A stretch of DNA of 64,000 nt from Fulvivirga marina (GTDB lineage: Bacteria; Bacteroidota; Bacteroidia; Cytophagales; Cyclobacteriaceae): assembly GCF_016775155.1 (NCBI RefSeq), contig NZ_JAEUGD010000066.1, positions 2,763-66,762 on the forward strand, given 5' to 3'. Below, piece after piece: positions 1,996 through 25,154 of this stretch. The translations under genes were made by a program, and so were the position numbers. The first letter of the stretch is position 1, and every line of letters begins with the position of its first letter. The notes under the pieces are model-generated. The model saw only the letters and a program-made list of their open reading frames with translations, made no database searches and had not been told where the DNA came from.

Positions 1996-4900
1996 TTAAG
2001 GTAGCCATACCCGAAAGGTAGTGACATCATGGTTTGTCAGATCAAGTTGAAGGCTACCTTTAAGTTTATCAATAATGATCTTGGATTCGTACAGTCCTAA
2101 CCCCACACCCTTTGACTCTGTAGTACCTTTTACAAACATTTTAAAAATGTCGTCAGTCAGCATTTCATTAACTCCAACTCCATTGTCTGATATTTCAAGT
2201 ATTAATTCACTTTGCTGTCTGAATATCTTGGTTCTTATGTATTGTTCCTTTTCCTTCGGGTCTGCATATAGCACTGCATTCTCATAGAGGTTTTCCAATA
2301 GCAATAACAACAGCTTAGGGTCGGTTTCTACGTTATCCATTTCTCCGCCAAAAATCTGAAAGTCAATTTCTGATGTATTGATCCTATCCGACACTGATTT
2401 CCAGGAGCTTTCAATTGTCGCCATAACGGATGCTTCCTGAATGGTCGGCATTCTCATTTTGATATCATGAATTCTTAGAAGCCTGGACAGCATCTTTTGC
2501 ATATCACTGGCCGTGTTTTCCATTTTACCCAAATATTCTTCCAGCTTAGGTCTGAACCGGGAGCCCTCCCGCTCCAAAGACTCTTTAATGTCGAGCCGGC
2601 ATGCATAGCACAACCCCAACAGTCTGGTAATGGGACCTTTAAGGTCATGAGCTGAGCGATAGGTCAGGTGATTGAGTTCCCGGGTCCTTTGCTCGACCAT
2701 TTCTTCAAGAATTTCATTGGTATTCGAAAGTGACTCATTCTGTTTCCTGATCAACTTTTGCGCCTTTTCCAGGTCCTTACGCTGATTATTGATCTTGCGG
2801 TATGCGCCGGCATTATCAAGGGCAATAGATACATATGACGCAAGGTTTTTCAATAGGTCCAGCTCATGCGTAGAATAAACGTTCTTTTCTTTGCTCTGTA
2901 CCCAGATTAGTCCGGTTACTTGTTCACCCGAAACAAGTGGTAGCACAATTAAAGCACTTAACAGCTCCTCGTGGTAACCTGTATTACCTGATTTTGCATA
3001 TTCCAAATATTCTTTTTGAACATCTCTCATGAATATTTCCTGCTTATTCAACACGCATTGCACTGATAAGCGGTGTTTTTCGGTTACAGAGATAGGTCTG
3101 TGAGACTTACTTTGATATCCACTAAAGATTGCTTCAAAAATGATCTCCCCAAGGCTTTCATCATATCTTCCTACACCAAATTCATCTACGCGCATCAGGG
3201 ATTGTACATTGTGATATACCTCCCTGATCATTTCTCCCATGGACAATTGCGCTGTGATGTGCTGGCCTATGGTACTCAAAAGGGCTACATTTTGATAGGC
3301 CTTTTCTAACGCTTCATTTTTGTCTTTCAGCTCATCGTTAACCTCTTGTATAAACTCCGACTGGCTTAGAACCTCACTGTTGCGCTCTTGGATTTCCAAA
3401 TTCATTTTTATAAGGTTCTCCGCCTGGCTTTCCATCTCCTCCTTCTGCTTCATGATCTCTCGTGTACGTGAGGCCACTTCATGCTCCAAGGTTTCCTTTT
3501 GGCTGCTCAGGTTATTCACGCGAACTTTGTAAATCGTCCAGAGTAAACCCATGGCTATACCTGCCCATAGTACTTTTGCCCAGGGTGTCAGCCACCAGGG
3601 AGGTATAATGACAATTCTAATAGAGGCTCCTTTCTCATTCCAGACGCCGTCATTATTTGAGCCTTTTACATGGAATACATATTCACCATGAGGTACACTA
3701 GTGTAATAGGCAGTCCGTCTGTTTTTCACATAGTTCCAATCGTCTTCAAGACCTTCCAGGTAATAGGCATATTCGTTTTGCTCCGGTTGCTTGTAATTGA
3801 GTGCCGCATAATCAAATGAGAAAAAAGCCTGATCGTATGCCAGTGTTATTTCATGGACTCTTGAAATGTTTTTGTTTAGGTAAAAACCATCCGCTCCCTT
3901 CTGTTTGCCAATTGGAACACTTTTATTGAACAATTTAAGATCAGTTACATAGACCGGAGGCACCTTATTGTTGCTTTTAATTTCTGCTGGATCTATGATA
4001 TTAAACCCATTTATTCCCCCGAAATAAAGCATACCATCTTTACTTTTATAAACAGCACCATGGTTAAACTCATTGCTTTGAATACCATCTTCCAGATAAA
4101 AATTTAAAAAAGACTGATCACTGGGGTTAAACCGGGAAAGTCCATAAGTAGTAATCATCCACAGATATCCAAGGTCATCACCGATTACAGAGTATACCGT
4201 ATTTTTAGCAAGCCCATGCTCTTCATTGTAATTCCTGAAAACGGGTTCCTTCCCTGTTAATAGCACCTCATCAACTCCCCATGCTGTTGCCACCCATAAA
4301 GTATCGGGGTGTCTGCTATATACCCCCCATACAGTACTATTAGACAATGAATTATGTTCCTCACTTGGCATAAAGTGATATACTTTCCCTGTTGCCCTAT
4401 TATAACTAAACAAACCTTTATCCATGGTTCCTACCCAAAATTGGTCATCAGAAGTTTTAGTTATAGAAGTCACAAACCCTGGTATTTCCCGGATATGTTC
4501 GAAAACACCAGTTTCTGAATTCAAAATATCCAGCCCCATTCCCCAGGTAGCTACGAATATGGCTCCTGAATCATCATCAATTAAGACATCTATAGCCAGA
4601 TTATTAGCTATGCTCGTACTATCCTGTGGGTCGTGAACGTAGTGTGTAAATGTATTACTTACAGGATCATACATATTAAGGCCCCCAGCAAAAACTGCTA
4701 TCCATAGATTACCATTCTTATCCTCAGCCATATCCCAGATCCTGTTACCACTTACCGAAGCTTCTTTGTTCTTTGGGTCAGGCAGCCAATGGCTTACATT
4801 TTCCATATTCTTGTCAAAGCGTGTAATGCCTCCCCCACCTGTTCCAACCCATAGCTCACCATTGTCCCATTTATAAAAGCTCCAGGCAGATGGATCATTG

Positions 4901-21904: not shown

Positions 21905-22007
21905 TAAAAGTATTTCCTACCCATCAACTTATAAAACAGGTAATTTCAAAGCCATACTTTCATGCCCTCTATCAGAATATCATAATCACAAAACACTACA
22001 AACCAAA

Positions 22008-22038
22008 AAGTTAAATATAAATTAACTTGAGTTAACTT
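22008..22038. promoter_or_regulatory. Operator-like cluster of TTAACTT repeats
   Basis: Three copies of a 7-mer lie in 31 bp: AAGTTAA (22008-22014, inverted), TTAACTT (22022-22028) and TTAACTT (22032-22038). The last two are exactly 10 bp apart, one helical turn, and the middle pair also forms the palindrome TTAAC-TTGA-GTTAA. They lie ~150 bp upstream of the first short ORF. This is what a cooperatively bound operator looks like, but the region is AT-rich and chance is not excluded. Confidence 0.35.
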
Positions 22039-22189
22039 AAATATTCATCAGTAAATCAATGTTACAACGTGTACTAAATCAACTATCTCTAGTATCTCAT
22101 CGATTTCTACCAGTCAATAGAAAAAATTTAAAATTTCATTTGTTTCAAAAAAAATATTTTCCAATAATTGCAACATCAACGAAACAAAA

Positions 22190-22267
22190 ATGGAAATGAA
22201 CAAACCAAATATCAAATTTACGGAGTCAGGCAGCTTTGTCTGCGCTAGGTATTACGGTTTGGGATAA
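22190..22267 (+). CDS. Short ORF 1 (25 codons), candidate leader peptide or small protein
   Basis: ATG at 22190 (or 22196) with an A-rich leader gives 25 residues starting MEMNKPNIKF and ending FVCARYYGLG, then TAA. A terminator hairpin follows 28 bp later. No homology is recognised. The same ORF-then-terminator layout is repeated at 22336-22500, and the two peptides share a GF/SF-(V)C-(A/S) stretch near the end. This supports a real element, but whether the peptide or the RNA is selected cannot be told from one genome. Being short, it could also be chance. Confidence 0.35.
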   Translation: MEMNKPNIKFTESGSFVCARYYGLG

Positions 22268-22295
22268 TATAAATTATTAACAAAATATTATATAG

Positions 22296-22322
22296 ACCCG
22301 GCTCGTAAGAACCGGGTTTTTT
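22296..22322 (+). terminator. Rho-independent terminator 1 (between the two short ORFs)
   Basis: ACCCGG (22296-22301) pairs with CCGGGT (22312-22317), with a further TC/GA pair inside the loop, and runs into TTTTTT. Its internal layout is the same as that of terminator 2. Confidence 0.85.
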
Positions 22323-22335
22323 ATTATAAGAAAAT

Positions 22336-22446
22336 ATGATTTACACAAAAGATCCAATAGCGCTCAATGCAATACAGCTTCATACCACATTCTTTTTATG
22401 GGGTTTCTGTAGCTACATTAGGATCGGTAAGTTTTATATACATTGA
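22336..22446 (+). CDS. Short ORF 2 (36 codons), candidate leader peptide or small protein
   Basis: ATG at 22336 with a leader of A and T, 36 residues, TGA at 22444-22446. The N-terminal half is polar (MIYTKDPIALNAIQLHTT). The second half is aromatic and hydrophobic with one Cys (FFLWGFCSYIRIG) and ends KFYIH. A terminator follows 24 bp later, then the TPR gene. It may be a small membrane-active peptide or a leader peptide whose translation governs the following terminator. I do not recognise it. Confidence 0.35.
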   Translation: MIYTKDPIALNAIQLHTTFFLWGFCSYIRIGKFYIH

Positions 22447-22470
22447 TTTAGTTTTATTTCAACTATATAA

Positions 22471-22500
22471 AGCCCGGTCCTCTCAGATCGGGCTTTTTTT
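22471..22500 (+). terminator. Rho-independent terminator 2 (upstream of the TPR-TPR-rtcB genes)
   Basis: AGCCCG (22471-22476) pairs with CGGGCT (22489-22494), with TC/GA pairs inside the loop, and runs into seven T. It lies 93 bp ahead of the first TPR start codon, a position suited to attenuation of the operon as well as simple termination. Confidence 0.85.
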
Positions 22501-22592
22501 ATTTAACTATAATCAATGTTTCATTATTTATAGTTATTGAAAGTGCGGTCTTTAAAATATAAGTGTTCAACTATTTAATAATTTTAGAAATA

Positions 22593-23090
22593 ATGACTGT
22601 GCGAGTATTACAACAGTATGTTTTTGATGCCGAAAAGGCCTTTGAAAGACAGGAATGGCTCGAAGGGAAAGACCTTTTGCATGAAGCTCTTGAAATGGAG
22701 CCGGTTTATGCAAAAGCTCACAACCATCTTGGTTGGCTGCACCTTTACTATATAGTGGACTTTAAATTAGCCGAAATGCACTTAAAGTTAGCCTTGAAGT
22801 ATGCTCCTGATTATCATGCTCCTTATATGCACATGGCACAGCTACTATTCGACATGGGAAAATGGCAAAAATTAGAACAATTACTAAATAAAGCCATGCA
22901 CGTAGCTGGTGTTCAAAGGTCATTTATTTACAATGACTTAGGAAGGCTATACGAAGTACAAGGTGAATATAGCAAAGCGATAGACCATTACAAGTTGGCT
23001 GCACGCCATACTTTGGATAATCAGGAGATTGATGGCATACGTGGTAACATTAAGCGAACACGTAAAAAGAGATGGATGCTATTTTGGTAA
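22593..23090 (+). CDS. Small TPR protein A
   Basis: 165 residues from ATG at 22593, preferred over the in-frame GTG 30 bp upstream, which adds an unusual hydrophobic run. No signal peptide, so cytoplasmic. The body is four or so TPR-like helical pairs: AFERQEWLEGKDLLHEAL, KAHNHLGWLHLYYIVDF, APYMHMAQLLFDMGKW, VQGEYSKAIDHYKLAARH. It ends with a very basic segment (KRTRKKRWML). It is a paralogue of the next gene (shared pattern AxxHxxLGWxxxxxxxxxxxAExHxKxAxxxxP). It lies 76 bp before that gene and is probably transcribed with it and rtcB. Confidence 0.8.
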   Translation: MTVRVLQQYVFDAEKAFERQEWLEGKDLLHEALEMEPVYAKAHNHLGWLHLYYIVDFKLAEMHLKLALKYAPDYHAPYMHMAQLLFDMGKWQKLEQLLNKAMHVAGVQRSFIYNDLGRLYEVQGEYSKAIDHYKLAARHTLDNQEIDGIRGNIKRTRKKRWMLFW

Positions 23091-23166: not shown

Positions 23167-23700
23167 ATGGACGATATTTTACTCAATACAGAAGAATACA
23201 TACTTAAAGCAAAGGATCACATAGACAGCTGGGATTACATCCAAGCCAAAAGGCTATTGATGGAGATACTTGAAGATCAGCCCGATAACGGGCGAGCTCA
23301 TCAATTGCTTGGCTGGATCTATGCCTCTCAGCTCAACCAATATGACATGGCTGAGATCCACTTTAAGATGGCAATCCGTTTTGAACCGTATCATACTACC
23401 ACTTACAGTGATTACATCTATCTTTTAAAAATGACCTCTAGGTATAAGGAGATGGTTGAATTCGCTGAAAAAGCTGAAAAAATAAGAGGTATAAACCTAG
23501 CCTATATACAAAGGAACAAGGCTGAAGCATTTGAAATGCTTCGTGATTATAATAATGCAGCTTCCACTTACAGCGAGGCTATTATCAATGCTCTTGATGA
23601 GGATCTGATCAGTAGCTGTGAACGCGGAATAGAACGAATTGCCAGAAAAATAAAAATTAAAGAGCAACTAGACTACAATGCTACTCTTGATGTAGCCTGA
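23167..23700 (+). CDS. Small TPR protein B (paralogue of A)
   Basis: 177 residues, cytoplasmic, TPR-type throughout: GRAHQLLGWIYASQLNQYDM, AEIHFKMAIRFEPYHTTT, MLRDYNNAASTYSEAIIN. It aligns with TPR protein A along nearly the whole length, so the pair arose by tandem duplication. It lacks A's basic tail and ends in an Ile/Lys-rich helix. It is followed after 32 bp by rtcB. A role as adaptor for RtcB or for RNA-damage signalling is only suggested by position. Confidence 0.8.
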   Translation: MDDILLNTEEYILKAKDHIDSWDYIQAKRLLMEILEDQPDNGRAHQLLGWIYASQLNQYDMAEIHFKMAIRFEPYHTTTYSDYIYLLKMTSRYKEMVEFAEKAEKIRGINLAYIQRNKAEAFEMLRDYNNAASTYSEAIINALDEDLISSCERGIERIARKIKIKEQLDYNATLDVA

Positions 23701-23732: not shown

Positions 23733-25154
23733 ATGGCAACTACAAAAATATCAGGAAAGGAACTCAGGCAACTGGGTTATCCTGAAGGCAAAGTAATAGG
23801 CATTGCTATCAAAGTGCTTGAGGGTAAATACAAAGGAAAGAGTAAAAAACACAAGCTTGAGTTACTGGGCAGTGTAATAAAAGCCCCGGAGTATTACCTC
23901 AAACATGATTCTCTGGCCCCTATTGCAAAAAGTCTGATTATAAAAACTGAGCATAACGAAACCGTTGAGCTAAACAAAAACCGGCTTGATTATCACATAT
24001 ACGGAGCTGAGGGCATCGAGCCTGGTGCAATCAACCAGATGGAGATAGCTATGAAGCTCCCTGTAACCAAGGCTGGTGCTTTAATGCCTGATGCTCACCA
24101 GGGGTATGGTTTACCTATTGGCGGTGTATTGGCTACTGACAATGCAGTTATCCCTTACGCTGTAGGGGTAGACATTGGCTGCAGAATGTGCATGACAGTA
24201 TATGATATTCACCCTGAGTTCTTAGAGCAAAACAGTGAGAAGCTGAAAAAGATGCTCATAGATAACACAAAGTTCGGCAATGAGGTTTTTAAGCGCCCAA
24301 TGGACCATGAAGTGCTGGAAAGAAATGACTTCAATGAGATAAACATTCTCAAATCACTGAAAGACAGAGCTTACAGCCAAATTGGAAGTTCTGGTGGCGG
24401 TAACCACTTTGTAGAATTTGGTGTAGGAGAAATCACTGACGCAGATAATGAATGGCAACTGCCAACAGGCAAATATCTGGCGGTGCTCTCCCACTCCGGT
24501 TCTCGCGGACTGGGTGCCAATATAGCCCGTCATTATACCAAACTGGCTATGGATAAGTGCAGGCTTCCAAAAGTAGCTCAGCACCTGGCCTGGCTAGGAC
24601 TGGATACCGAAGATGGTATTGAATACTGGAACGCAATGAACCTGGCAGGAGATTATGCTTCAGCATGCCATCATCAAATCCATGACAGGCTATCTGCCTC
24701 CATAGGAGAAAAACCGCTAATGATGGTTGAAAACCATCACAACTTTGCGTGGAAAGAGCTTGACAGGTTTGACAATGAAGTGATCGTTCACCGAAAAGGT
24801 GCAACCCCTGCAGGTAAAGGCGTATTAGGTATTATCCCTGGCTCCATGACATCTCCAGGCTTCATTGTAAGAGGTAAAGGACTGGTCGATTCTCTTAACT
24901 CGGCCTCTCACGGAGCCGGAAGGGTCATGTCAAGACGTAAAGCCAAGGAGACATTATCTAAAAACGAAGTAGACAGACACCTGAAACAGGCTGGAATTGA
25001 GGTGATAGGTTCAGGACTGGATGAAGCCCCAATGGTCTACAAGAACATCTATCAAGTAATGGCACACCAAACTAAGCTTGTTGATGTGCTTGGCACTTTT
25101 ACACCGCGTATCATTAGAATGTGCGGTGATAAAAGGTTTGGAGAGGTTGATTAG
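23733..25154 (+). CDS. rtcB: RNA-splicing ligase RtcB
   Basis: 473 residues. RtcB joins RNA 2',3'-cyclic phosphate (or 3'-phosphate) and 5'-OH ends using GTP and Mn2+, through a guanylylated His. Family segments are in order: MPDAHQGYGLPIGGVLA, VGVDIGCRMCM with the metal-binding Cys, GSSGGGNHFVEFGV, LSHSGSRGLGANIARHY, VENHHNFAWKE, VHRKGATPAGKG, IPGSMTSPGF, and ASHGAGRVMSRRKAKE with the nucleophilic His. No archease, RtcA or RtcR is nearby; instead two TPR genes precede it. The likely task is repair of cleaved tRNA or rRNA under stress. The N-terminal ~60 residues (KYKGKSKKHKLELLGSVIKA) appear to be a basic extension. Confidence 0.96.
   Translation: MATTKISGKELRQLGYPEGKVIGIAIKVLEGKYKGKSKKHKLELLGSVIKAPEYYLKHDSLAPIAKSLIIKTEHNETVELNKNRLDYHIYGAEGIEPGAINQMEIAMKLPVTKAGALMPDAHQGYGLPIGGVLATDNAVIPYAVGVDIGCRMCMTVYDIHPEFLEQNSEKLKKMLIDNTKFGNEVFKRPMDHEVLERNDFNEINILKSLKDRAYSQIGSSGGGNHFVEFGVGEITDADNEWQLPTGKYLAVLSHSGSRGLGANIARHYTKLAMDKCRLPKVAQHLAWLGLDTEDGIEYWNAMNLAGDYASACHHQIHDRLSASIGEKPLMMVENHHNFAWKELDRFDNEVIVHRKGATPAGKGVLGIIPGSMTSPGFIVRGKGLVDSLNSASHGAGRVMSRRKAKETLSKNEVDRHLKQAGIEVIGSGLDEAPMVYKNIYQVMAHQTKLVDVLGTFTPRIIRMCGDKRFGEVD

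Follow-up and report, generated by a model that had tools for sequence, protein, structure and literature searches.

The region upstream of rtcB in Fulvivirga marina raises the question of why two short open reading frames (ORFs), each closed off by an intrinsic terminator, should stand one behind the other in front of a gene for RNA repair. The window analyzed here, i.e. the whole stretch of 64,000 nucleotides to which all coordinates refer unless another locus is named, carries on its forward strand genes encoding a first TPR protein (22593..23090, Pfam TPR), a second TPR protein (23167..23700, with Pfam TPR matches that mostly lie below the curated cut-off, one being above it only at the level of the cut-off neighbourhood) and the RNA ligase RtcB (23733..25154, PF01139, E 1.1e-80). 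A preliminary description of this DNA had placed two ORFs of 25 and 36 codons that start with ATG, with an intrinsic terminator behind each, in series before an operon TPR-TPR-rtcB that ends in an RNA ligase gene, with the second terminator 93 bp from the first gene, and had offered tandem attenuators, a pair of small RNAs or small-peptide genes as possible readings. ORFs, terminators and distance were all confirmed, and, among the three readings, our analysis supports the attenuators and speaks against small-peptide genes and independent small RNAs.

Organization of the two units

The leader ORF of unit 1 (u1), MEMNKPNIKFTESGSFVCARYYGLG (22190-22267, forward strand, 25 codons, ATG to TAA), has counterparts in the 23 tandem loci described below and is followed by terminator 1 (22295..22322), which consists of the paired segments 3:4 and a T run. 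Thirteen nucleotides behind this T run, the leader ORF of unit 2 (u2), MIYTKDPIALNAIQLHTTFFLWGFCSYIRIGKFYIH (22336-22446, 36 codons, ATG to TGA), begins; its terminator 2 (22469..22500) ends with a T run at 22500, and the first TPR gene behind the putative switch starts with the ATG at 22593. The similar nucleotides that had been pointed out near both ORF ends are real and represent the strands of a predicted antiterminator. In u1, segment 2 (TTACGGTTTGGG, 22252..22263) comprises the last codons and is able to pair with segment 3 (CCCGGCTCGTAA, 22297..22308), the 5' arm and loop of terminator 1. In u2, the upstream strand (22420..22440) is composed of segment 2 (AGGATCGG, 22420-22427) and an inner helix strand (22431-22440), and the downstream strand (22464..22481) of an inner helix strand (22464-22472) and segment 3 (CCGGTCCT, 22474-22481). 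The proposed common GF/SF-C pattern of the two peptides, in contrast, did not hold as a conserved peptide motif: 11-14 of 25 (u1) and 18-24 of 36 (u2) residues are identical in comparisons between the three closest genomes. Judged from the sequence, a short, apparently translatable ORF and an intrinsic terminator are thus located before structural genes, as is the case in an attenuator.

Promoter-like elements, as judged by the Bacteroidota promoter consensus, occur directly 5' of u1 (22137..22172, forward strand), with TTTG at 22139-22142 and a -7-like element, TAATTGCA, at 22165-22172. A TA-N(0-3)-TTG box is found 15-37 nt 5' of the u1 start in 19 of the 23 tandem genomes; in G138, G127, G377 and G035, TTGCA or TTTG without the TA is located 22-26 nt 5' of the start. 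A known Rfam leader (riboswitch, T-box or other) was rejected as an explanation: no match reached the gathering score in the window, and the region 22000-22650 gave sub-threshold matches only, such as Trp_leader (21.4 bits, 41 being required) and Thr_leader (25.6 versus 55). ARAGORN found no tRNA in the window.

Recurrence of the units at rtcB loci

The preliminary description had made its proposal depend on conservation in sister species, and the units indeed precede the corresponding genes at the equivalent position in G014, F. kasyanovii JCM 16186 (G001) and F. imtechensis AK7 (G002), the window genome being designated G000. In a DNA search of 15 genomes of the genus, the four closest were matched clearly and all further matches were short and weak; similarly, a search with the u2 peptide of G014 clearly returned G014, G001 and G000 and only two weak others (E 0.3 and 0.4). 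A covariance model of u1 reached further. Across the 15 genus genomes it matched, besides these four, the region 5' of slipin-TPR-rtcB in G006, G004 and G007 (E 1.5e-4 to 1e-3), where two units of largely different sequence are present, and two units also occur at the slipin-rtcB locus of G012. Five other matches of the model were opened, of which three proved to be amino-acid leaders of the genus and two, in G009, terminators behind genes.

Tandem units were identified in 8 of the 15 genus genomes, 10 of which have rtcB at E 1e-20 or better. In the family, rtcB was searched in 148 genomes, and the upstream regions of 34 of 57 places were found to hold tandem units (8), a single unit (7) or none (19); in the order (291 genomes), 20 of 56 places examined gave 7, 1 and 12, respectively, where none found does not equal absence, as the terminator script misses weak or unusual hairpins. 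Tandem units thus lie 5' of rtcB and on the same strand in 23 genomes of the order, at distances of up to several kb. Sixteen of these entered the main statistics and seven order genomes were held out; shuffles and draws treat related genomes as independent. Start codons were chosen by position, which led to GTG for u1 of G127, TTG for u1 of G099, and at several loci to an ORF other than the longest one beginning with ATG. Counted from the first base of the start codon, CATAT or ACATA recurs at an offset of 15-19 nt in u1 of 16 of the 23 genomes, and CATATC was seen by eye also in leaders of the PrfH type (see below).

Predicted antiterminators overlap the ends of the leader ORFs

Well-conserved blocks close each ORF in the four Fulvivirga genomes and show complementarity to the 5' arm of the following terminator. 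When segment 4 was withheld, segments 2 and 3 paired in the lowest-energy fold of seven of the eight units, and in all eight when the first 30 nt of the ORF were kept unpaired, as under a ribosome. The exception, u1 of G001, folds segment 2 with the start of the ORF and forms 2:3 once these 30 nt are unpaired. Pairing of segment 3 with the 80 nt 5' of it, scored against dinucleotide shuffles, gave a mean z of -2.47 over 32 units of 16 genomes, 22 of them below -2, compared to a mean of -0.03 and 4 below -2 among 48 control terminators (Mann-Whitney p 8.6e-11, with related sequences counted as independent). The first control set had comprised 67 other strong terminators of the same loci (mean z -0.71), and its best-scoring members were mostly further rtcB leaders or duplicates of loci already included; 17 loci with 19 terminators, 7 of them non-leader, were removed whole after that result, and returning these 7 (55 controls) yields a mean of -0.05. 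The 14 units of the seven held-out genomes reached a mean of -2.18. The agreement extends to the group and not to every unit: 6 of the 46 units score above -1 (u2 of G159, G084, G395 and G400, u1 of G269 and G035). Over the 23 genomes, a unit's own segment 3 pairs better than those swapped in from other clades (Wilcoxon p 1.9e-4 for u1 and 2.3e-6 for u2) and is the best of all swaps in 7 (u1) and 11 (u2) genomes.

For the window itself, pairing in u2 is beyond chance, being matched by 1 of 300 and 0 of 1000 shuffles, and pairing in u1 is not (37 of 300 and 147 of 1000); nor does its own u1 segment 3 pair better than swapped ones. With the upstream 70 nt shuffled, 0, 3, 1 and 41 of 1000 shuffles match the u2 pairing of G000, G014, G001 and G002, respectively, and 147, 73, 54 and 13 that of u1. 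The covariation suggested as a check was found in part: in the Fulvivirga alignments just one base pair of 19 and one of 15 changed on both sides, so that the proof by covariation within the genus is thin. The inner helix of G001 u2 has C-G in place of a U-A pair. In F. imtechensis, the reading frame of u1 is shifted by a single inserted base; the block is kept and still pairs with a changed terminator loop.

The position of these elements relative to the ORF is similarly regular. In all 32 units, segment 2 starts 1-31 nt 5' of the end of the stop codon, and in 31 of them the terminator starts 19-29 nt 3' of the stop codon (44 nt in one). A ribosome that has reached the stop codon would thus occupy segment 2 or lie next to it. 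A protector of the classical kind, in which a segment 1 pairs with segment 2, is not obligatory in every attenuator. As a general feature it was rejected here (mean z -0.08 over the 32 units), values of -1.5 or lower being confined to u1 of G014, G004, G006, G007, G098 and G151. The behaviour in the absence of initiation is therefore uncertain, and the simplest logic would be that the antiterminator is free to form whenever the ribosome fails to arrive, for whatever reason. Taken together, we regard it as very likely that the two units constitute a tandem ribosome-dependent attenuator.

The leaders resemble neither small-protein genes nor separate small RNAs

Genes for small proteins with ordinary terminators would explain the ATG-started open frames of conserved length, and the synonymous bias that had been named as a check shows a slight excess at the third position for u2 in two of three comparisons between the three closest genomes (changes by codon position 13,9,18; 14,11,16; 9,6,7). 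For u1, however, the changes are spread evenly (6,7,9; 7,7,6; 5,9,6), as opposed to 22,9,72 and 20,4,63 in the neighboring first TPR gene, the peptides look unrelated between clades, and the frame shift in G002 lies within a conserved block. Since the peptide sequence is not conserved, small-protein genes do not fit; we rejected this explanation and consider it the least probable of all. Hardly more credit is due to a pair of small regulatory RNAs which end in the intrinsic terminators and contain the ORFs by accident. Two short terminated transcripts would indeed be made, and nucleotide blocks are kept where the peptides change. In contrast, only 7-29 nt separate the T run of terminator 1 from the start of u2 in each of the 16 genomes, so that a promoter of unit 2 would find little space, and neither the similar size of the ORFs, nor the fixed distance of the stop codon from the terminator, nor the linkage to rtcB is expected of independent RNAs. 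This explanation was therefore rejected as well, and the terminated leader RNAs would be by-products.

Leader peptides contain a near-complete mixture of amino acids

Leaders of amino-acid biosynthetic operons are marked by a run of the regulating codon. None of the 46 leaders has such a run; they show the opposite, a high diversity. The longest run of a single amino acid is 1 in 9, 2 in 36 and 3 in one leader, this sole run of three being arginine encoded by different codons. Together, u1 and u2 encode 20 of the 20 amino acids in 10 and 19 in 6 of the 16 genomes (the missing ones being V, A, T, W, V and A), and 19 or 20 in all 23 genomes (20 in 10). The mean number of distinct amino acids in the 16 genomes is 16.69 for u1 (14.42 in windows of real proteins and 14.26 in chance ORFs), 17.69 for u2 (16.01 and 15.80), 19.62 for their union (18.10 and 18.32) and 14.75 for those common to both leaders (12.32 and 11.74), each of which was reached in 0 of 1000 draws of either null. 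Relative to length-matched chance ORFs from these loci, z amounts to 5.8 for u1 and 4.9 for u2. After thinning to 11 genomes, chosen by our judgement of closeness, the sums were still reached in 0 of 1000 draws and the 20/20 count in 2 of 1000 chance-ORF draws.

The idea of diversity arose by eye on the first 7-8 genomes, all of them within the 16, and only the seven order genomes are held out. There, the union is 19 of 20 in every genome and sums to 133, compared to 126 in protein windows and 125 in chance ORFs (reached in 21 and 23 of 2000 draws). The u1 leaders sum to 113, compared to 97 and 94 (0 of 2000 each), the value for u2 was reached in 64 and 12 of 2000 draws, and that for amino acids common to both leaders in 1 and 0 of 2000. 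For the pair of the window taken by itself, the full set of 20 does not reach significance (P 0.06 and 0.125), and when only codons are counted whose stall would free segment 2 according to our 14-nt rule, the union ranges from 14 to 20. Diversity of this kind is the expected look of a leader that reads any tRNA; it is also compatible with a general sensor of elongation selected against codon runs.

tRNA genes and partner genes behind the proposed switch

In 13 of the 23 loci, the interval from terminator 2 to the first protein gene contains same-strand tRNA genes. These 31 operon tRNAs comprise Gln (6), Tyr (5), Asn (5), Ile-UAU (4), Lys (4), Cys (3), Phe (2), His (1) and Met (1); the loci include L117 2493-3044, L131 (reverse complement) 3058-3208 and L088 1422-1581, along with those of ten more genomes. 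In 6 of the 13 the tRNA genes begin within about 35 nt of the terminator, leaving little room for a promoter of their own. Five of the eight operon tRNAs of three genomes were compared with same-anticodon genes elsewhere in the genome and are divergent copies (59/85, 50/79, 45/75, 54/85 and 50/72 identical positions). The comparison covers tRNA genes in the regions fetched, which do not include all tRNA genes of these genomes and contain no gene for the same amino acid as the other three. The interval is free of tRNA genes in G000, G014, G001 and G002, whose TPR gene starts within 100 nt, and ARAGORN found none in the interval between switch and protein gene of G004, G383, G269 (about 680 nt covered), G417, G377 and G035; in L164 of G383 a tRNA-like stretch was detected by Rfam.

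With respect to the partner genes, a Band 7 (slipin-like) protein was confirmed in G006 and TROVE (Ro60-like) proteins in L137 and L180; other partners were named by eye. A conserved stretch of about 130 nt was observed by eye between u2 and the tRNA genes at about 1250-1420 of L088 and at the same place in L089 and L090 (reverse complement). Its ends, GGTAAACC...GGTTTACC, pair, and it is perhaps a tRNA-like or Y-type RNA. The tRNA behind it in L089 (G004) looks degenerate.

Other leaders in front of rtcB genes

A different leader is located about 105-165 nt 5' of another rtcB group in six genus genomes (L122 5937-6037, L123 5939-6039, L125 5594-5699 and, as reverse complements, L124 5305-5404, L126 3559-3658 and L127 2177-2269). 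These second-type leaders contain an AAGGAG-type Shine-Dalgarno sequence, which is unusual in this phylum, an ORF of 10-19 codons and a GACCGG-type segment facing the terminator. As the next gene in L127 holds an RF-1 domain and appears PrfH-like, this group may belong to RtcB2-PrfH ribosome repair, and it might be speculated that a leader depending on a Shine-Dalgarno sequence could act as a reporter of 16S rRNA damage. A third type, a single leader of about 22-26 codons with a terminator some 110-250 nt 5' of rtcB, was seen in six family genomes (L150, L154, L156, L157, L159 and L161) and, at a greater distance with another ORF in between, in L155. Five of these leaders are of the MLK/MLI...FS/FR type, and the six that were scored have pairing z values of -2.8 to -5.2. 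A further group of rtcB paralogues (L118, L119, L120 and L121) stands beside a gene which by eye resembles a 3'-5' exonuclease; the terminator script found no leader terminator at these four copies.

Discussion

Two ribosome-dependent transcription attenuators in series are proposed to govern TPR-TPR-rtcB. Transcription would start just 5' of u1. A ribosome that promptly translates u1 to its stop codon would cover segment 2, allowing segments 3 and 4 to pair and transcription to stop, and u2 would then pose the same test; with a ribosome that is delayed, stalled or missing, the 2:3 antiterminator would form and the polymerase read on. A delay might result from translation being generally slowed or from almost any tRNA being short or broken, the latter because the leaders lack a codon run and hold a near-complete mixture of amino acids. 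As gates in series act as a logical AND, an amino acid encoded in only one leader would not open both. The output would consist of the RNA ligase, its neighbors and, in many related loci, spare tRNAs, i.e. a response to RNA damage under failing translation. We infer that the leaders are translated, that the switch works in the direction described and that leaders and genes share a single transcript, several kb lying between switch and rtcB in some loci; likewise proposed are the trigger, which may be tRNA damage or a failure of translation of any kind, and the advantage to the cell. We assign a probability of roughly 0.8 to this reading, a mixed-codon sensor of translation status whose serial attenuators control an RNA-damage operon.

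What the sensor responds to is the point at which explanations diverge. Attenuation specific for one amino acid, for example cysteine, might be suggested by the presence of Cys in u1 of 15 of 16 genomes, by the over-representation of Cys (2.8 vs 0.7 percent) and Trp (2.3 vs 1.3 percent) in the leaders relative to the window proteins, and by genuine amino-acid leaders of the same build in the genus. The latter, however, have runs of 5 and 7 Tyr (G012 and G007) and of 3 and 3 Trp, as opposed to 1-3 in the 46 leaders; neither leader of G383, G417 or G377 contains Cys; and rtcB is no biosynthetic gene. Lacking a codon run and showing high diversity, the leaders do not fit this explanation, which was rejected and ranks only just above that of small-protein genes. 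The two Trp-run leaders, MKNNSLHNAWWWHYTRNW and MKTLININKAWWWHFLDFKE (G001, L093 1840-2070), also stand in tandem with their own terminators, before a gene that by eye is trpE-like.

A more serious, though still unlikely, alternative is that the leaders sense ribosome-targeting drugs or a global slowdown of elongation, like leaders of the ermC and toiL type, and that their diversity is a by-product. Such a role agrees with the absence of codon runs, with the proposal that toiL responds to stalling anywhere in its ORF (PMC12121999), and with the link between rtc expression and survival of ribosome-targeting antibiotics described in PMC12606134. In contrast, the number of distinct amino acids per leader exceeds that of chance ORFs of equal length, again in held-out genomes, and the tRNA genes that follow the switch at 13 of the 23 loci point to loss of tRNAs. 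The narrower version of the mixed-codon sensor would be a cis-encoded general alarm for tRNA damage: the leaders would have been selected to contain all, or nearly all, twenty amino acids, and the loss of any tRNA would stall the ribosome and switch on the RNA ligase, partner proteins and divergent replacement tRNAs, as a defense against anticodon nucleases that has spread through one order of the Bacteroidota. To this version we give an even chance.

Attenuators of the trp/his/phe type have a leader ORF and an antiterminator competing with a terminator before structural genes. The rtcB leaders share these parts with them (cf. PMC1183508) and differ in lacking a regulatory codon run and a general 1:2 protector, in standing two in series and in targeting RNA repair. 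Two leader ORFs within one leader reportedly control the Salmonella mgtCBR operon by transcription attenuation and read ATP and proline additively (Lee and Groisman 2012, PMC3641672); in our case, both leaders are of the same mixed type and each has its own intrinsic terminator, in series. The toiL uORF of topAI-yjhQ has been proposed as a multipurpose sensor of translation stress that reports stalling anywhere, which the rtcB leaders would have in common with it; unlike these, toiL unmasks a ribosome binding site and acts through Rho termination, without an intrinsic terminator and with a different output (PMC12121999). The Salmonella rtc operon is tied to damaged tRNAs through the CARF activator RtcR, where we propose a leader acting in cis, and the words attenuat, leader and Bacteroid were not found in the main text as available (Hughes 2020, PMC7790460). 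In Anabaena, loss of TrcR reportedly leads to higher expression of the trn tRNA operon, rtcB and a slipin gene, with derepression under translational stress (PMC10272220). The combination of a spare tRNA operon, rtcB and a slipin gene is thus shared, but Anabaena uses a protein repressor and genes at separate places rather than one attenuated operon. As far as their accessible text goes, a Flavobacterium transcriptome study mentions leader-peptide attenuation for amino-acid operons, and a survey of premature terminators from 2010 contains neither the word rtcB nor Bacteroid. Among the matches listed in a search of the open-access literature there was no report of an attenuated rtcB. Hence, the kind of switch is known, and its use and design appear to be new.

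The switches of RNA repair with which we compared the locus, RtcR and TrcR, are dedicated protein sensors; in the present case, translation itself would take the part of the sensor. Leaders in which nearly every amino acid is represented are the reverse of the textbook amino-acid attenuator, and they offer a testable answer to the question of how a cell could detect damage to any of its tRNAs. The switch would tie rtcB, slipin, TPR and Ro (TROVE) proteins and spare tRNA genes into one regulated unit, and the tandem mixed leader may serve as a recognizable signature by which RNA-damage operons can be found.
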